DNA from: Flavobacteriaceae bacterium
Lineage (GTDB): Bacteria; Bacteroidota; Bacteroidia; Flavobacteriales; Flavobacteriaceae
DNA length: 46,528 bases
Reading direction: 5' to 3'
NCBI GenBank assembly: GCA_016780345.1
Contig: JADHLZ010000010.1
Span: 1-46,528, forward strand
Positions 1 through 28,911 of the stretch are shown here, piece by piece. Position 1 is the first letter of the stretch. Every line of letters begins with the position of its first letter. The notes below the pieces were generated by a model, which had not been told where the DNA came from, did no database searches, and saw only the letters and a list, made by a program, of their open reading frames with translations. The position numbers and the translations under genes were made by a program.

Positions 1-117
1 TAAGTAATGTTTAGGCAGTTTTCAGTCAGAACATTGTCGAAAATTAATTGAAAACTAAATCTGTAGAAAGCTATTTTGTCGCTTGTTTGGACGAGGGTTC
101 GATTCCCTCCGACTCCA
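1..117 (+). ncRNA. ssrA: tmRNA (ssrA), 3' part only
   Basis: This is the 3' end of transfer-messenger RNA, which rescues stalled ribosomes. The tRNA-like part is clear: a T-stem GAGGG at 93-97 pairs with CCCTC at 105-109 around a TTCGATT loop, followed by seven acceptor bases (110-116) and discriminator A117. Upstream, the segment around 56-92 (TGTAGAAAG then GTTTGGACG) matches the conserved 3' domain of bacterial tmRNA. GTTTTC at 18-23 can pair with GAAAAC at 50-55 as part of a pseudoknot. The 5' part, including the peptide tag, lies outside the window. The bases after the discriminator are CTA, so the terminal CCA is not encoded and must be added by the Cca enzyme. Confidence 0.9.
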
Positions 118-155
118 CTATTTTAAAACTAAACCAACATAGTGGGATTTTCTTA
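115..155 (+). terminator. candidate terminator of tmRNA
   Basis: CCACTAT at 115-121 pairs with ATAGTGG at 139-145 and is followed by a T-rich stretch (GATTTTCTT). The left arm overlaps the mature tmRNA 3' end. The stem is 7 bp with a long loop, so it is a moderate candidate. Confidence 0.5.
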
Positions 156-201: not shown

Positions 202-1356
202 TCAGAAAACATTGAACAAACGTTTTAATACTGCTGACAAAAAAATAGTTTTTGAAAAACTTAACATAATTTTAAACTCTTCAATAAAATTAGATTTGTT
301 ATCCAAGAATCTAAATATGGTTTTAGAATTATTTTTTTTAAACATATCTGAAAATAATTTTTTTCCAAGATGATTTTTATAAAAAAGGACATCCAAAAAA
401 ATTAAATCGTAAAACCAAAACCTGTCTTTTGAAATAAATTTATCAAAGCTTCTATGACTTTTCAAAAACTCAACAATTCTAGTAGTTTGCTTATCAATGT
501 TCTTAAAAGTGTATCCAGTACTGGGCTTACTCCATCCTCCTGCAGAACCAATATTTAAAATGTTTTCTGAATTTTTGTTAAAAAAAGGGAAGCATGTCAT
601 GGGTATTTTACCAGATTCTTTCGAAATGATTTTATACTGATTAATATTTAAAGAGTTTAAATATTTATTTATTGCAGCTTCATATTTATTAGATTCCAAT
701 AACCTTTTAGAAAACAAAGTATATTCAACTAAAGCTTCATTTTTTGAAAATGGAAGTATATACATGAACTGTGTTAATTGATCTTGATTGATTGAAAAAT
801 CCATAAATGTTGCTTTTTCTGGATTGAAACTTTCATTATCAGTTTTTATAACCCAACCTTCAAAATGTTGAATTAATAAAGGATACTTGGTTTGAGCTTT
901 TACCTCGTCCCAATCAATTATACTATTGAAAACTTTGGAACAAGTAAAAGTATTATTTGAAGTTTTTACATTACAATATTTTTTATTATCAGTAAAATTT
1001 AAGACATTGGAATTTAACACTTCAATATTTTTGTTATTTTTTATAATTGAATTTGAATAATTATAAAATTCAGAACTAGACAACATCTTGTAAGTAAGCG
1101 ATCCTAAATCTAGAGTCTTATTAAAGTCATCGCTATTAAAAAAAACATTATCCCATTTACATGTAATAATTCCGTCCCATACTGTGTTCTTATTATCCCA
1201 AAAACACAAAGTTCTGTCGTTTTTAGTTTTTGGAAAATCTGGATCAATTATGAGAATTGATTTATTTGATTCACTAAAGTCTTGACTTAATTTAACAGAT
1301 AATAACAATCCAGAAATTCCTCCTCCACATATTATATAATCGTAGTCTGTTTTCAT
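202..1356 (-). CDS. crtY: lycopene beta-cyclase
   Basis: 384-residue flavoprotein that cyclises both ends of lycopene to give beta-carotene, the retinal precursor. The N-terminus has the FAD/NAD-binding Rossmann motif GGGISG at residues 11-16. A GSAGGWSKPSTGYTF segment in the second half matches the conserved G-x-x-x-G...P-S/T-T-G-Y block of CrtY-type cyclases. It lies 100 nt downstream of proteorhodopsin on the same strand, but a strong terminator separates them, so it is probably transcribed separately or by read-through. The ATG at 1356 directly precedes the Rossmann strand, so the start is well placed. The length is normal for the bacterial CrtY family. Being next to proteorhodopsin and blh makes a retinal-supply role very likely. 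Confidence 0.93.
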   Translation of the reverse strand: MKTDYDYIICGGGISGLLLSVKLSQDFSESNKSILIIDPDFPKTKNDRTLCFWDNKNTVWDGIITCKWDNVFFNSDDFNKTLDLGSLTYKMLSSSEFYNYSNSIIKNNKNIEVLNSNVLNFTDNKKYCNVKTSNNTFTCSKVFNSIIDWDEVKAQTKYPLLIQHFEGWVIKTDNESFNPEKATFMDFSINQDQLTQFMYILPFSKNEALVEYTLFSKRLLESNKYEAAINKYLNSLNINQYKIISKESGKIPMTCFPFFNKNSENILNIGSAGGWSKPSTGYTFKNIDKQTTRIVEFLKSHRSFDKFISKDRFWFYDLIFLDVLFYKNHLGKKLFSDMFKKNNSKTIFRFLDNKSNFIEEFKIMLSFSKTIFLSAVLKRLFNVF

Positions 1357-1407
1357 CTCATTTTTAAAGATAATTATAATTTAAGATCCTAATCATATTT
1401 ATTCAAT

Positions 1408-1436
1408 AAAAAAAGCCGCTAAAAGCGGCTTTTTTT
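1408..1436 (-). terminator. rho-independent terminator after proteorhodopsin (symmetrical)
   Basis: AGCCGCT (1414-1420) and AGCGGCT (1424-1430) form a perfect stem with a 3-nt loop, flanked by an A-run on one side and a T-run on the other. It would work in both directions. Reading leftward it ends the proteorhodopsin transcript 20 nt after the stop codon. Confidence 0.9.
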
Positions 1437-1455
1437 ACTAATAATAATTTTATTA

Positions 1456-2184
1456 TTATTTTGAAACAGCTAGGTTATAAACAACTAGACCAAAACCAAT
1501 CTTGTTAATTGAGTCACCTATGTTGTAAACTAAGTCAATGTTTTCAGCTGCAACCCAGCTAGACATAAACTCATACCACATTCCGTCTCCAGTTCCAATC
1601 ATGTAACCAATTGGGTAAATAGCCCAACCAATAATTACAAAATTAACTAACATTTTATGCGCTGACAAAACTGAGCCTCCTGCTTTTTCAGCTAGTTTTG
1701 CAAGCTCACCCCACTTGATAAGGTACACAATGTAGAAATAAGCAAGACCAGAAAGACCACCCCAAATAGCAGCATCACCTAGTCCAGCCTCACCAACATA
1801 ACCTGTTAAAAGCATAGCTACAGAAGCCCAAATTAAAAGCCTCAGGTGTTTAGTAGTAGCGCCAGCAGCTTTTAGAATTAGATAGAATTCAACACACATT
1901 AATGGTACTGTTAAAATCCAATCTACATATCTAAAAATAGTCGTACTTTCACCACCAGCATGAGCATCTCTCATGTACATGTAGTGAACGGCAGCAATAA
2001 AAGTAATTAAACCAGAAACTAAAATAGAAGATCTCCATTTCGAGTCAACTGCATTTAAATTTAGGAAGAAAAAGACAGATGCTGCCATCATTGCCATTGT
2101 TCCTATCCAAAAAGTGATTCCAACTAAATCGTCTCCAGCTGGCACATCACCAAAAAAATAAAAAGTGTTTAAAAATAATTCCAT
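1456..2184 (-). CDS. proteorhodopsin, green-type light-driven proton pump
   Basis: Seven-helix retinal protein of 242 residues that exports protons in light. In helix C, D88, T92 and E99 correspond to the proton acceptor D97, T101 and donor E108 of the reference green proteorhodopsin, giving the DTE proton-pump motif. H67 matches the histidine that pairs with the acceptor. K228 in the last helix (SINKIGFG) is the retinal Schiff-base lysine. The tuning position (reference residue 105) is M96, typical of flavobacterial green-absorbing forms. The open frame extends to a TTG at 2217, but ATG 2184 gives the usual N-terminus MELFLNTF and is preferred. It is divergent from blh (93 nt apart) and ends in a strong terminator. 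Confidence 0.97.
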   Translation of the reverse strand: MELFLNTFYFFGDVPAGDDLVGITFWIGTMAMMAASVFFFLNLNAVDSKWRSSILVSGLITFIAAVHYMYMRDAHAGGESTTIFRYVDWILTVPLMCVEFYLILKAAGATTKHLRLLIWASVAMLLTGYVGEAGLGDAAIWGGLSGLAYFYIVYLIKWGELAKLAEKAGGSVLSAHKMLVNFVIIGWAIYPIGYMIGTGDGMWYEFMSSWVAAENIDLVYNIGDSINKIGFGLVVYNLAVSK

Positions 2185-2214
2185 AATATTATAATTTATT
2201 ATTTTGTTTAAAAC

Positions 2215-2222
2215 CAAATATA
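2215..2222 (-). promoter_or_regulatory. candidate -7 box for proteorhodopsin
   Basis: TATATTTG on the minus strand matches the Bacteroidetes -7 consensus TAnnTTTG. It lies 30 nt before the proposed ATG. No clear TTTG -33 element was found at the usual 19-21 nt spacing, so support is partial. If real, transcription would start after the upstream TTG codon, which supports the ATG at 2184. Confidence 0.45.
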
Positions 2223-2277
2223 TAAAAAAACTTTTGACATTTACTACATTTATATTAACAAAAGAACTTGAAACCTG

Positions 2278-3162
2278 ATGAATTCATATTATTTTAACCA
2301 TATTTCTTCAATGTTAATAATTTTTGGGACAGTTTTTTGCCTAATATTATATTCCATAGTTTCAAAAAATTTTATTGATTTAATAGCAATTTCCGGAATA
2401 TTATCAGTCGGGATTGTTCATGGAGCTAATGATTTGTTACTAATTAACAAAACTTTTAACAGTAATAGAAGTACATTTTTTCAGTTTTTTCTGTATCTAA
2501 TTCTAGTAATACTTTTTTTTATTTTTTTTTACAACGTTCCATCTTTAGCACTGTTAATCTTTGTGATATTAAGCTCATTTCATTTCGGAGAACATCAATG
2601 GACTTTATTTGAAAAAAACGACAATTACTTTATTAAATTTTTCTATTTCAATTATGGTCTATTAATTTTCTCTATATTATTTTATTTCAACTTCACTGAA
2701 GTAGTTCTTATTATTAAAGACATAACAGAACAAAATATCAACATTACTTTTTTTAAAAACTTACTTTTTTTTTCATCACTAACTACATTATCATTTTCTG
2801 TTGTGTTATATAAACATTTAAAAAATCAATTGTTAATACAATTATTTTTTATAACATTTTTTCTTTTTTCAGTATATATAACAGATTTACTACTATCCTT
2901 TGCAATTTACTTTGTTTTATGGCATAGCCTCCCCTCTATTTTAGAACAAACCAAATTTCTTTTTGGAAATTCAAATAAAACTCAATTAAAGATTTATTTA
3001 AAAAAAGCTTTACTATATTGGATAATTTCAATTTTTGGACTTGTAGTTACCTATTATATTTTTAAGGATAGTCAATCTCAACTTTTAAGTATATTTTTTT
3101 CTTTTTTAGCAGCTATAACTTTTCCTCATACTTTTGTAATTTCTAAAATAAAAAAGCCCTAA
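2278..3162 (+). CDS. blh: beta-carotene 15,15'-dioxygenase, Brp/Blh family
   Basis: 294-residue integral membrane protein that cleaves beta-carotene into two molecules of retinal. It has multiple hydrophobic helices and the four histidine motifs expected to bind iron in this family: HGAND (H48), FHFGE (H102), LWHSLPS (H216) and PHTF (H284). It is divergent from proteorhodopsin, the normal partner. The ATG at 2278 begins just before the first membrane helix. The protein is extremely Phe/Leu/Ile-rich, consistent with base composition and membrane location. The stop codon lies inside the left half of the downstream hairpin. Confidence 0.93.
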   Translation: MNSYYFNHISSMLIIFGTVFCLILYSIVSKNFIDLIAISGILSVGIVHGANDLLLINKTFNSNRSTFFQFFLYLILVILFFIFFYNVPSLALLIFVILSSFHFGEHQWTLFEKNDNYFIKFFYFNYGLLIFSILFYFNFTEVVLIIKDITEQNINITFFKNLLFFSSLTTLSFSVVLYKHLKNQLLIQLFFITFFLFSVYITDLLLSFAIYFVLWHSLPSILEQTKFLFGNSNKTQLKIYLKKALLYWIISIFGLVVTYYIFKDSQSQLLSIFFSFLAAITFPHTFVISKIKKP

Positions 3163-3197: not shown

Positions 3198-3539
3198 TTA
3201 AGATTTTTTTCTATTAGCTATAAAACTTTTTACAAAGAAAACCATAGCTATTATTCCGGAAGTTATCATAGCAACGACTCTAAGAACACCAACATTATCG
3301 CCCCTACCAATCGCACCATTTAAAGGCATAAAAAGTCCTAAAAGACAAATTAATGTAGCAAGCACAGCTATATGCGCTATAACTTTATTTTCTTTTTTAA
3401 GACCTGGAGAGCAAAAAAGTAATAACGATCCAAAGATTACAGGAATTATTGCGGTACCAGAAGAACTTTCAAAATATCCCCATAACCCAACAATTATTAG
3501 AATCATTGAGTTTAAAATATTTGCTTTATATGAGTTCAT
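3198..3539 (-). CDS. small four-helix membrane protein, function unknown
   Basis: I do not recognise this 113-residue protein. It is almost entirely hydrophobic, with about four predicted membrane helices (near residues 8-26, 30-45, 53-72 and 85-104), a short charged loop after the second helix (LKKENK) and a basic C-terminus (NRKKS), suggesting a cytoplasmic tail. The layout resembles small TMEM14-like or DUF-type proteins, but that is only a resemblance in shape. It stands alone, convergent with blh and 41 nt downstream of the AAA+ gene on the same strand. A TACTTTTG box at 3563-3570 suggests its own promoter inside that spacer. Confidence 0.75.
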   Translation of the reverse strand: MNSYKANILNSMILIIVGLWGYFESSSGTAIIPVIFGSLLLFCSPGLKKENKVIAHIAVLATLICLLGLFMPLNGAIGRGDNVGVLRVVAMITSGIIAMVFFVKSFIANRKKS

Positions 3540-3562
3540 GTTTATAATTTAAAATTAATATT

Positions 3563-3570
3563 CAAAAGTA
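3563..3570 (-). promoter_or_regulatory. candidate -7 box for the small membrane protein
   Basis: TACTTTTG on the minus strand matches TAnnTTTG and lies 23 nt before the ATG at 3539. No TTTG was seen at -33. Confidence 0.35.
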
Positions 3571-3579
3571 AACATTAAA

Positions 3580-5034
3580 TTATAATCTATTAATATAATC
3601 AGAAAAAGAATCACTAAAAGATAGTCCTCTTGAGGTTCTGGTAATATTTATTTTTTTAAATGCTGACAAACCCCAAAGCAAAAATTCACACATGAAATTT
3701 TCATCTTTATTTTCAAGATTTGGAATTTCTTTTTTTACAAAGTTTTTTAAAACTATTATAGTTTTGAATGTATCATTGTAAGCTTTATTATCGAGATTTT
3801 CATCAATAAAAAACTCTTTGTTTTTAAACCATTCAGTTATTTCTTTGTAAGGGTCATCTTCATCTTGTTTTGTTAATTTTTTAATTTTTGGAAAGAAATC
3901 ATTAAAAAACGTTTTTATTGATTCTAAAATTAAAAACCTTGACACCTCCACTGAGCCCTCTTGTTCTCCCTCATACACAAGCTCTATTTTTCCGTTAATT
4001 GCTGATATTACTGCATTAAAATCTGACATACGAAGACTAGTTTCTGACTCTCCATTGATCAACATTCTTCTTTTTGCTGAACTAATTAAATTCTCAAAAG
4101 CAGAAATTGACAACCTTGCACTTACTCCACTTTTTGAATCAACATAAATACTTTCTCTTGCTTCAAAGCTTATTTGTTCAATAATATTTTTTGCAATTTC
4201 AGGAACATAAATTTTTTCAGAATTATAAGAGTTTGATTCTTGATGTGTTATTTTTTTTGCAACTTCTATTGTTTTAGGGTAATGAGTCATAATTTGAGAG
4301 CCAATTCTATCCTTTAGTGGAGTAACAATACTTCCTCTATTGGTGTAATCCTCAGGATTTGCAGTAAACAATATCTGTAAAGTCACAGGCAATCTTAATT
4401 TAAAGCCTCTAATTTGAATTTCTTTTTCTTGAAGAATAGAAAAAAGAGAGACTTGAATTCTAGCTTGTAAATCTGGAAGTTCATTTAATACAAAAATACA
4501 ACGATTGGCTCTTGGGATCATACCAAAGTGAATAACTCTTGGGTCAGAATAAGGCAACTTCAAAGTTGCCGCCTTTATTGGATCAATATCGCCAATTAAA
4601 TCAGCAACAGTGACATCAGGAGTTGCAAGCTTTTCAAAAAATCTTTCACTTTGATGAACCCAACTAATTGGAGTTTTATCTCCCATTTCATGAATTTTAT
4701 TTTTAGCAAAATGAGATATAGGATTAAAAGGATCATCATTAATTTCAGAACCACTTACTATAGGCATCCATTCGTCTAATAAATTGACAAGCTGCCTTGC
4801 TAATTTTGTTTTAGCCTGACCTCTCAATCCTAATAAATTAATATTATGTCTAGACAAAACAGCTCTCTCAAGATCTGGAATAACAGAATCTTCATAACCA
4901 TGAATATCTTTAAAGCTGGAAACTCCATTTGATAGATTCTTTTGTAAATTAAAAATCATTTCATCTTTGATATCTTTTGAAACATATCCTGAATCTTTTA
5001 ATTCTTTAATTGTATTTATTTCATTTATTTTCAT
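3580..5034 (-). CDS. MoxR/ChlI-like AAA+ ATPase
   Basis: 484-residue AAA+ ATPase of the MoxR/magnesium-chelatase I-like group. Walker A is GLRGQAKT (about residues 69-76), Walker B FVLNE (181-185), and a sensor/arginine-finger region reads FTANPEDYTNRGS followed by LKDRIGSQ. About 180 C-terminal residues beyond the AAA core are less conserved. The open frame continues to 5079, which would overlap the upstream VWA gene by 38 nt. ATG 5034 begins MKINEINTIKEL, a typical start for this family, and removes the overlap. Known family members work with VWA proteins to remodel or activate client enzymes. The client here is unknown, and chlorophyll synthesis is not implied. Confidence 0.88.
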   Translation of the reverse strand: MKINEINTIKELKDSGYVSKDIKDEMIFNLQKNLSNGVSSFKDIHGYEDSVIPDLERAVLSRHNINLLGLRGQAKTKLARQLVNLLDEWMPIVSGSEINDDPFNPISHFAKNKIHEMGDKTPISWVHQSERFFEKLATPDVTVADLIGDIDPIKAATLKLPYSDPRVIHFGMIPRANRCIFVLNELPDLQARIQVSLFSILQEKEIQIRGFKLRLPVTLQILFTANPEDYTNRGSIVTPLKDRIGSQIMTHYPKTIEVAKKITHQESNSYNSEKIYVPEIAKNIIEQISFEARESIYVDSKSGVSARLSISAFENLISSAKRRMLINGESETSLRMSDFNAVISAINGKIELVYEGEQEGSVEVSRFLILESIKTFFNDFFPKIKKLTKQDEDDPYKEITEWFKNKEFFIDENLDNKAYNDTFKTIIVLKNFVKKEIPNLENKDENFMCEFLLWGLSAFKKINITRTSRGLSFSDSFSDYINRL

Positions 5035-5041
5035 AAAAAAA

Positions 5042-6160
5042 TTATAATCGTTTTTTTCTATTTGTTTCATAATCTTCAAAAATCATCTCTCCCAACCCTT
5101 TTAGTCCTGTGTAAAAGGCCTTTCCTTTGTTAGCTTTTGTAAACTCCTGAACAAATCTTTTAAGATATGGATCATCAGCTATCATAAATGTAGTAATTGG
5201 GATATTTAATCTTCTAGCTTGCTGAGCCATATTGTAGCATTTATCTAAGATATACGAATCAAGACCGTTACTATTTTTATAATAGGATCCATCCTTTAGT
5301 TTCAAACAGCTTGGTTTTCCATCAGTTATCATAAAAATCTGTTTATTAGAATTTCTATTTCTTCTAAGAATATCCACTGCCAACTCTAAACCAGCAACTG
5401 TATTTGTATGATATGGACCAACATTTAAGTAAGGAAGTTCTTTAATTGAAATTGGACGAGCATCGTTTCCAAATACTATAATATCAAGTTTATCTTTTGG
5501 GTACCTTGTTGTTATAAATTCTGATAACGCCATGGCCACTTTCTTAGCTGGTGTGATCCTATCCTCTCCATATAATATCATGCTATGACTTATATCAATC
5601 ATTAAAACGGTACTCATTTGAGCTTGATAATATTGATCGTTGATCATTAAATCTTCTTTTGATAAACTAAAATCATCTAATCCGCCCTTAATATGTGCAT
5701 TCTTTATACTTTCGGTAACCGCTATTTTTTCTATTGAATCACCAAATTCGTATTTCTTTAAGTCGCCTGCATCACTTAAACCACTTCCAGAATATTTTGT
5801 ACTGTGATTACCATTTCCAATTTTCTTGATTTTTCCAAAAATCTGCTTTAGAGCATGTTGCCTTAAAAGCATCTCAGTTTTTGCTGTAATTCCAAGTCCC
5901 TGATCATTTTTCTTTTGATCAAATTCATTTTTTATATATCCCCTTTTTAATAAATCTTCAATAAAATCTTCAATTGAATAATCATCTGATGTAAGAACAT
6001 ACTCACTATCCAGTTCCTTTAACCAATTAATCGCCTCATCAAAATCTCCAGATGTATATGTAATTAATTCTTTAAATACTTCAAAGAGTTTTTCAAATGG
6101 TGTTGTTGTTTTGGGAATGTAATTAGTAAATAAAAACCCAGATTCTTTAATAGAACTCAT
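5042..6160 (-). CDS. VWA-domain protein, partner of the MoxR-like ATPase
   Basis: 372-residue protein with a C-terminal von Willebrand A domain. The metal-ion-dependent adhesion site is visible: D189-x-S191-x-S193 in MIDISHS, a threonine near 252-254, and D280 in MITDGK. The N-terminal 180 residues are charged and helical with no recognised enzyme motif. There is no signal peptide or membrane helix, so it is probably cytoplasmic. Its stop is 7 nt from the start of the AAA+ gene, so the two are very likely co-transcribed and act together, as in ChlD/ChlI, RavA/ViaA and other MoxR-VWA systems. No nearby gene is an obvious client. Confidence 0.87.
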   Translation of the reverse strand: MSSIKESGFLFTNYIPKTTTPFEKLFEVFKELITYTSGDFDEAINWLKELDSEYVLTSDDYSIEDFIEDLLKRGYIKNEFDQKKNDQGLGITAKTEMLLRQHALKQIFGKIKKIGNGNHSTKYSGSGLSDAGDLKKYEFGDSIEKIAVTESIKNAHIKGGLDDFSLSKEDLMINDQYYQAQMSTVLMIDISHSMILYGEDRITPAKKVAMALSEFITTRYPKDKLDIIVFGNDARPISIKELPYLNVGPYHTNTVAGLELAVDILRRNRNSNKQIFMITDGKPSCLKLKDGSYYKNSNGLDSYILDKCYNMAQQARRLNIPITTFMIADDPYLKRFVQEFTKANKGKAFYTGLKGLGEMIFEDYETNRKKRL

Positions 6161-11760: not shown

Positions 11761-11925
11761 AAAAAAAAAGCCTACATCTTGAATTTTGTATAAACTCTAT
11801 TACTAAAAAGTTTAGGGCTAACTAACTGATCAAGGATCCTTAAATAGGCTTGCTTTAGCAGACTAGACTCACCCTTTTTAAAAAATTCTTGTTGAGTTTA
11901 TCAAAAAAAGTTGATGCAGGCAGTA
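11761..11925 (-). ncRNA. ssrS: 6S RNA (Bacteroidetes type)
   Basis: The spacer between zapA and rny folds, on the minus strand, as a long imperfect hairpin. A 9-bp closing stem pairs minus-strand GCCTGCATC (11913-11921) with GATGTAGGC (11770-11778). A second 8-bp stem pairs ATAAACTC (11894-11901) with GAGTTTAT (11790-11797). A third, AAAAAGGG with CCC...CTTTTT, is followed by a large unpaired central region near 11825-11868. A run of U residues follows the closing stem and acts as a terminator. Size (about 160 nt), shape and position next to zapA fit 6S RNA, which binds RNA polymerase holoenzyme and acts as a promoter mimic. The exact 5' end is uncertain. Confidence 0.78.
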
Positions 11926-27056: not shown

Positions 27057-28007
27057 ATGAAAAATTATAGTTTTTCAAAATTTAATATTTTTCTTAAAGG
27101 AATGTTAATGGGAATAGCTGATATTGTACCTGGCGTTTCTGGTGGAACAATAGCAATTATAACAGGCATTTACAAAGAGTTTTTAAATACTTTAAACAAG
27201 CTTGATATTAGAATTTTTTCAAATCTAAAATCAAAAGGGTTAAAATTTATATGGAAATCATATAACCTTGGTTTTTTGTTTTCTCTAATTCTTGGAATTA
27301 TGACTAGCATAATCATTTTGAGCAATTTTATTCTGTTAATTATTAAAATTCATCCAATAGCACTTTGGTCATTGTTTTTTGGATTTATTTTAGGTAGTAT
27401 CATATTTCTTTTAAAAGAAACTGATAAATTGAATTTCAAAAATTCAAAATTTATAATTCCATCACAATTGTATCTTCTATTTCTTGGAATTTTTATGGCA
27501 ATATATGTCCAAACAATTAAACCGAACGAAGTTGATATTAATTTTGTATACTTATTTTTTTGTGGAATGATAAGTATTACAGCTATGCTTCTGCCAGGAA
27601 TATCAGGAGCATATATTTTAGTTTTACTTGGTGCTTATGAAACGATGCTTAATACATTTAAAGAAGTTTTAAAATTTAATACTGACTATTTTACAAACTT
27701 TATTTCATTTGTTTTTGGAGCTTTAATTAGCGTAAAATTATTTTCAAAATTTTTGTCTTGGTCTTATGAAAACCATAAAAACAATACTTTATATGGACTA
27801 ATTGGTTTTATGATCGGATCTCTTCCTTCACTTTGGCCATGGAAAAAAAATCTTGAAAAAGTAGATTCAATTATTGAAAATTTATACATACCTAATAATT
27901 ATTTCAATAATTCTGAATTTACTCAAGGTTTAATATTTTTTTCTATAGGGTTTTTAATAGTTTTATGCTTAGAATTTTATTCGAAAAAAAATGCAATCAA
28001 AAAATAA
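27057..28007 (+). CDS. DUF368 membrane transporter (PopT-like), copy 1
   Basis: 316-residue polytopic membrane protein of the DUF368 family. The hallmark motif ADIVPGVSGGTIAIITGIY lies near residues 21-39, with an inverted-repeat-like partner LLPGISGAYILVLLG near 178-192. Both are re-entrant-type glycine motifs. Published work on DUF368 proteins (PopT) assigns them to recycling undecaprenyl phosphate across the membrane for peptidoglycan and other wall polymers. That role is transferred from the family. It overlaps copy 2 by 17 nt. Confidence 0.9.
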   Translation: MKNYSFSKFNIFLKGMLMGIADIVPGVSGGTIAIITGIYKEFLNTLNKLDIRIFSNLKSKGLKFIWKSYNLGFLFSLILGIMTSIIILSNFILLIIKIHPIALWSLFFGFILGSIIFLLKETDKLNFKNSKFIIPSQLYLLFLGIFMAIYVQTIKPNEVDINFVYLFFCGMISITAMLLPGISGAYILVLLGAYETMLNTFKEVLKFNTDYFTNFISFVFGALISVKLFSKFLSWSYENHKNNTLYGLIGFMIGSLPSLWPWKKNLEKVDSIIENLYIPNNYFNNSEFTQGLIFFSIGFLIVLCLEFYSKKNAIKK

Positions 28008-28911
28008 ATCGTTTTACATTATTCTGTTTTTTAAGAGTCTTTTGATGGGAACAGTGAATAAACTACCTGGTATTTCTGGTGGTTTAGTAGCATTATTGAC
28101 AGGATTTTATATTGACATGATTAACTCTTTAAAAAAATTAAATCTTAAATTTTTAAAATTATTATTACAATTAAAATTTAACGATCTCGACAAAGGATTT
28201 AATATATATTTTTTACTTGTCATATTTGTTGGAATATTAGTTAGTTATTTTACAACATCTCAACTTCTTGATTTTTTATTTGTAAAGTTTGAAATACAAG
28301 TTTGGTCAACATTTTTTGGAATGATTTTAGCTTCAAATATTATCCTTGTGAAGGATAATAGAAAATGGAATATAAATTCATTTTTATCAATTTTTTTCGG
28401 GCTAATAATTGGAATACTAATAAGTATATCTGAACCACTTTCTGAAAACAAAAATCTTTTATATGTCTTTTTCTGTGGATTTGTAAGTATTTGCGGCATG
28501 ATAATTCCAGGGCTTTCGGGATCTTACTTACTGATTATTTTAGGAAATTTTAAATTGTTATTAGTAGATTCAGTTAATGCAGTATATAATTCTTTTTTCA
28601 TTTTACTTGGATTGGGATCTAATCTTAAACATGATATTGAATTGTTAAATATTTCCATAATGTTTGCTTTAGGATCTATAACAGGTCTATTAATATTATC
28701 GAGAATACTTAGCTATTTGATACTTAACTTTAATAAAACAATTAATCAGATAATCATTGGTTTTGTAACTGGATCTCTATTTATTGTTTGGCCATGGAAT
28801 TATACTAATGAAAACTTTGAATTTAATGTTCAAAACTTAGTGAACTTTTTGTGGATGTTTTTTGGTTTATTTATAGTTTTATTTTTTGAAAGATATGCCA
28901 GAAAAAAATAG
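27991..28911 (+). CDS. DUF368 membrane transporter (PopT-like), copy 2
   Basis: 306-residue paralogue of the upstream gene with the same topology. Motif one reads VNKLPGISGGLVALLTGFY (near 23-41) and motif two IIPGLSGSYLLIILG. The first motif differs from copy 1 (VNKL for ADIV, L for T), so the two copies may differ in substrate or act as a pair. It begins inside copy 1 and its end overlaps aroE by 17 nt. Tight coupling suggests the two proteins are made in similar amounts, and a heterodimer is possible but unproven. Confidence 0.9.
   Translation: MQSKNKSFYIILFFKSLLMGTVNKLPGISGGLVALLTGFYIDMINSLKKLNLKFLKLLLQLKFNDLDKGFNIYFLLVIFVGILVSYFTTSQLLDFLFVKFEIQVWSTFFGMILASNIILVKDNRKWNINSFLSIFFGLIIGILISISEPLSENKNLLYVFFCGFVSICGMIIPGLSGSYLLIILGNFKLLLVDSVNAVYNSFFILLGLGSNLKHDIELLNISIMFALGSITGLLILSRILSYLILNFNKTINQIIIGFVTGSLFIVWPWNYTNENFEFNVQNLVNFLWMFFGLFIVLFFERYARKK

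Follow-up and report, generated by a model that had tools for sequence, protein, structure and literature searches.

A flavobacterial proteorhodopsin with a candidate carotenoid-antenna site in an apparently relocated retinal gene cluster

INTRODUCTION

Carotenoid-binding relatives of the pump considered here include NM-R1, a zeaxanthin-bound proton pump (PDB 9jou, 9jov), and KR1 of Dokdonia eikasta, a flavobacterial proteorhodopsin that binds lutein and zeaxanthin (PMC12308411). The main mark of the carotenoid site is a glycine, with a tyrosine and polar residues as supports, and the counterpart of Kin4B8 Tyr209 is Asp in KR1 and Glu in EinA29G6 (PMC12308411). The green proteorhodopsin of SAR86 (GPR; 7b03, 8cqc) has Leu at position 105 and no Gly at the antenna position.

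In Flavobacteriaceae, the proteorhodopsin (PR) gene and blh are known as a divergent, head-to-head pair (e.g., in Dokdonia; PMC3587595), usually found at the ffh-argS site or at other places, with crtY elsewhere. Clusters in which crtY, PR and blh do occur together are present in other Bacteroidota, namely in Sediminibacterium and a Crocinitomicaceae MAG (L116, L113, L064); these represent a separate assembly, with the order PR-crtY-blh and all three genes on the same strand. Conflicts between PR and species trees have already been reported for flavobacteria (PMC4831467).

The window analyzed here is the entire contig C41 (JADHLZ010000010.1; 46,528 nt) of a Flavobacteriaceae draft genome of 1.39 Mb in 46 contigs, which is 78% complete. 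It combines the head-to-head blh-PR pair with an adjacent crtY gene at a site away from ffh-argS.

GENE CONTENT OF THE LOCUS AND THE CAROTENOID PATHWAY

The first-pass annotation had placed crtY, proteorhodopsin and blh together, and this was borne out: crtY and the pump gene (both on the minus strand) and blh (plus strand) are all located at 202-3162, each scoring above its Pfam threshold. Its description of a compact cassette stood in so far as the three genes are adjacent, but blh is divergent from the pump, leaving no common operon, and crtY is situated past the terminator of the pump gene. The crtY gene (202-1356, minus strand) codes for a lycopene cyclase of 384 aa that would catalyze the second-last step to retinal. 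It exceeds the PF05834 threshold (169.9 bits vs. 23.4) and stays under the NCBIfam TIGR01789 equivalog cut-off (42.2 vs. 215.2 bits), which is why the product is termed CrtY-like and its beta-cyclase role is taken from context. Blh (2278-3162, plus strand; 294 aa) is assigned as a beta-carotene 15,15'-dioxygenase by TIGR03753 (171.6 bits vs. a cut-off of 95.25) and PF15461 (135 bits); its histidines H48, H102 and H284 are found in 82 of 82 relatives, and H216 in nearly all 82.

On one side, the cluster is flanked by ORF113 and genes for a MoxR-like AAA ATPase and a VWA protein (3198-6160, minus strand). On the other side, the contig begins within a tmRNA gene, whose 3' part (1-120, plus strand) was detected by Rfam (RF00023, 64.5 bits), whereas ARAGORN gave no call for the cut gene; the distance between crtY and the tmRNA is 83 bp. 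An M28 peptidase gene directly follows crtY in G005, G002 and G004 and is absent at the crtY gene of the window; a search of the window's genome, at 78% completeness, found no close orthologue. Elsewhere, the window carries a 6S-Flavo RNA gene (11792-11897, minus strand; 95.9 bits, above the Rfam gathering score) and, at 27057-28911 (plus strand), two adjacent genes with a slight overlap, whose products (316 and 306 aa) are similar polytopic membrane proteins and which look like a tandem duplication.

The remaining pathway genes, crtE, crtB and crtI, which the first-pass annotation had left to be sought elsewhere in the genome, were all found, crtE as a crtE-like gene. An operon on contig C37 comprises crtI (NF058655, above cut-off), crtB (PF00494) and a gene for a crtZ-like hydroxylase (PF04116), and a prenyl synthase suited to the crtE role is encoded on C30. 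Because none of CrtY, CrtB and the prenyl synthase reaches its NCBIfam equivalog cut-off, context was used to assign what exactly each of them makes. Given these genes, the synthesis of both retinal and zeaxanthin appears to be encoded. Contig C31 carries crtD (NF042421, above cut-off) followed by a cruF-like gene (L012:772-2882), so monocyclic carotenoids are probably also made, the pair pointing to products of the myxol or saproxanthin type besides zeaxanthin. A second crtI-like match corresponds to this crtD gene, and the two stop codons reported for it fall outside the open 488-aa frame. A 532-aa oxidoreductase on C11 was set aside as a distant crtI relative.

THE PUMP AND ITS CANDIDATE ANTENNA SITE

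The pump gene (1456-2184, minus strand) codes for a proteorhodopsin of 242 aa. Its start was placed at the ATG at 2184, and numbering from there puts the Schiff-base lysine at K228; a longer frame in the open-reading-frame list, with a TTG start at 2217, was rejected since this start falls inside the -7 box. A seven-helix, bacteriorhodopsin-like fold is supported by PF01036 (136.2 bits) and by an AlphaFold2 model with a mean pLDDT of 84.8. All proton-transport residues that had been proposed, the DTE motif and K228, are present by alignment as D88, T92 and E99 (equivalents of D97, T101 and E108) and the Schiff-base Lys, together with H67 (equivalent of H75), and these five residues are identical across all 102 pumps compared. 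Protons would thus be moved outward via the acceptor D88, paired with H67, and the donor E99. The methionine expected at the tuning position was confirmed as Met96 (GPR position 105). In flavobacteria, Leu or Met at this site is taken as green (PMC4831467), and green absorption is expected of the pump from Met96 and its family. The proton-pump residues and the fold are shared with GPR, at 41-44% identity. The best reading of the gene, supported by these features, is a proteorhodopsin proton pump with a local retinal supply.

It appears to be the single rhodopsin of the organism, as no second one was found in a search across the genome (78% complete). A plasmid search returned distant rhodopsins only, one of which gave access to the xanthorhodopsin sequences used below. 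In a related genome of few contigs, G015, the PR gene is split over three frames (L040; C3:269448-270175), which could be explained by sequencing errors or, alternatively, by decay of the pump.

Alignment to xanthorhodopsin (XR), Gloeobacter rhodopsin and Kin4B8 revealed that Gly142 of the window pump lies at the place of XR Gly156 and Kin4B8 Gly153, Tyr194 at that of Kin4B8 Tyr204, and Thr198, likewise polar, at that of Kin4B8 Ser208. Gly142 and Tyr194 are invariant in 102 of 102 pumps compared. The best structural match of the model is zeaxanthin-bound NM-R1 (9jou), with a Z score of 29.5, an rmsd of 1.8 over 224 residues and 62% identity, and Foldseek agrees on this match. NM-R1 also shares the DTE motif, the tuning-site Met and the Gly142, Tyr194 and Thr198 positions; the window pump differs from it in a longer 6-7 loop and at the place of Kin4B8 Tyr209, where it has, by direct count, Gly199 with Asp200 adjacent, and NM-R1 has Pro199-Gly200. 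KR1, compared at named residues, has the Tyr, Met and Thr of the carotenoid site in common with the window pump but carries Asp in place of Gly199.

Because Gly142, Tyr194 and Thr198 match, NM-R1 is the closest solved structure and a crtZ-like gene is present, the pump probably carries a zeaxanthin antenna, as judged from alignment and model. Alternatively, it might work as a green proteorhodopsin with retinal alone, the Gly142 slot being unfilled in the cell and zeaxanthin serving merely as a membrane pigment. The replacement of the polar residue of KR1 by Gly199 fits this alternative and might, by analogy, weaken energy transfer, given that the Y209F exchange in Kin4B8 reduces it from about 40% to 18% (PMC12308411); moreover, judging from crtD and cruF, much of the carotenoid may be directed to other products. 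This alternative is nevertheless the less likely one, since all three site residues are kept, the nearest solved relative binds zeaxanthin with a Pro at the variable place, and the genome encodes the crtZ-like enzyme. The zeaxanthin antenna is thus the preferred reading; it was absent from the first-pass annotation, as were the conserved -7 boxes in opposed orientation and the derived relocation, both described below.

PROMOTERS AND TERMINATOR

The pump had been credited with its own -7 box and a near-perfect terminator, and both were recovered. The box, TATATTTG, occupies minus-strand positions 2222-2215, and its placement 36-39 nt ahead of the ATG is kept in 15 of 16 genus genomes, the window included. 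By itself, the box is weak evidence, because a shuffled gap of the same size and composition (93 bp, AT-rich) holds one in about 14% of draws. The terminator (1441-1403, minus strand) is strong, with a folding energy of -22.1 kcal/mol (z -7.4), and its hairpin is conserved with changed bases in relatives, as GCCGC..GCGGC or ACCGC..GCGGT. The terminator rule of a sigma-70 scan, a method that is little informative in AT-rich Bacteroidota DNA, did not detect it, probably since its A/T arms consume the T tail.

On the opposite strand, an opposed -7-like box, TACATTTA, at 2245-2252 may serve blh; the pattern TAnnTTTG occupies this position in 10 of 16 genus genomes. A weak and tentative -7 box of crtY, TATCTTTA, was placed at 1365-1372 (minus strand) from the sequence and an alignment of relatives, which have TATATTTA instead; crtY might use this box of its own or rely on read-through. 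No -33 element could be assigned for these promoters. The kept -7 boxes and the conserved terminator indicate that the pump most likely forms a transcription unit by itself, with blh divergent, a layout that would allow strong expression of the pump with little enzyme.

RELOCATION OF THE CLUSTER AND EXCHANGE OF THE PUMP GENE

Among the 80 nearest named loci, the order Ffh-blh-PR-ArgS was found in 23, of which 21 lie outside the genus, and blh-PR-ArgS in a further nine. Six genus genomes retain PR at this ffh-argS site. In the twelve genus genomes of the derived type, Ffh adjoins ArgS with nothing between them, and in ten of these twelve the blh-PR pair was seen beside ORF113-AAA-VWA; in five genomes, which either are of the old type or lack PR, the ORF113-AAA-VWA place has no blh. 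Across the family, 21 of 28 loci have crtY adjoining a prenyl synthase gene, as do five members of the genus, and the row ZIP-MntR-synthase-TetR is intact, without crtY, in seven genomes including G000. In ten genomes, including that of the window, crtY lies next to PR. A branch of the UvrB tree, and likewise one of the crtY tree, separates these linked genomes from the others, with which a single relocation event fits. Because the old sites were found empty in derived-type genomes, the cluster is, as read from gene order, derived, joined from two old sites (ffh-argS and prenyl synthase) at the MoxR/VWA pair, and, within the genus, its compact layout arose by this relocation and is confined to a single subclade. 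In the genus genomes compared (51-93% complete), no PR was found in G003, G007, G008 and G019, and the ffh-argS site is empty in G008 and G019; this may reflect loss of the pump in some lineages, the incompleteness of the genomes being borne in mind.

The history of the pump gene departs from that of its neighbors. The UvrB tree groups G000, G005 and G002 with G014, G021, G006, G004 and G001 (100/100), and the crtY tree agrees with this grouping where crtY is present (100/100). In the PR tree, G000, G005 and G002 instead group with the old-site genomes and G020 (100/99). A PR tree constrained to keep the UvrB group intact was rejected (AU p = 4e-15), as was one constrained to a four-genome group (AU p = 6e-6); both groups were taken from other trees, and the tests followed inspection of the PR tree. 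The species tree is that of UvrB alone, a thin basis of one gene, which is missing for G013, G017 and G020. In the lineage of the window, the pump gene is mosaic. Its leader and initial ~15-25 codons belong to the local type and the remainder to the type retained in old-site relatives, as expected for recombination inside the gene. Two ancient PR copies followed by differential loss, with no recombination, might also account for the mismatch, and the PR tree alone cannot separate the two histories; this explanation appears improbable, as both complete PR types together were seen in none of the genomes compared and a local leader and first codons joined to a non-local remainder are what recombination predicts. 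Recombination within the pump gene is hence preferred. Since the conflict between PR and species trees had been reported earlier (PMC4831467), the kind of event is known, and the location assigned to the switch and the unchanged frame around it are an added, modestly new detail.

There is only a slim chance that the entire cluster was acquired from outside the genus by lateral transfer, with the old copies lost later. PR transfer among flavobacteria has been reported (PMC4831467) and clusters of the same three genes exist in other Bacteroidota; against such an origin, the cluster crtY is nested with same-genus crtY genes and follows UvrB, blh is likewise closest within the genus, and the outside clusters differ in order and strand. 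An assembly artefact at the contig end, conceivable for a draft contig that begins in tmRNA, is made very unlikely, to the point of being negligible, by the nine other, independent genomes in which crtY adjoins PR, some of them on contigs of 100-500 kb.

DISCUSSION

Taken together, the locus can with high confidence be regarded as a flavobacterial proteorhodopsin photosystem with a proposed antenna, a relocation and a later exchange in place. In the proposed scheme, the lycopene cyclase would supply beta-carotene, which Blh would cleave to retinal, and retinal would bind K228 to drive protons outward via D88 with H67 and via E99. Zeaxanthin made by the crtZ-type hydroxylase would sit in the slot opened by Gly142 and add blue-light harvesting. 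The pump and blh would be read from opposed -7 boxes within the 93-bp gap between them, and the pump transcript would stop at the strong terminator before crtY, yielding much pump and little enzyme. Historically, blh-PR would have left the ffh-argS site and crtY the prenyl-synthase site, to meet beside the MoxR/VWA pair; later, most of the pump gene would have been exchanged in place for the allele type of the old-site relatives.

The chances are about even that these events amount to a stepwise rebuild in a streamlined marine genus, in which relocation was followed by an in-place, within-genus exchange of the pump's coding region, the promoter, the terminator and the retinal enzymes all remaining local, so that a zeaxanthin-antenna pump would change its allele and not its supply. 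The system itself is ordinary, known and complete; the relocation and the in-place exchange are modestly new.

The pump is one more member of a very common marine system. With the Gly slot present in 102 of 102 pumps compared, it is probable that such flavobacterial pumps use zeaxanthin to capture blue light, in addition to the green light taken up by retinal. The history of the retinal cluster is readable, as both old sites were found empty, and the pump gene has seemingly been swapped inside a fixed frame, which would mean that allele and supply evolve apart.
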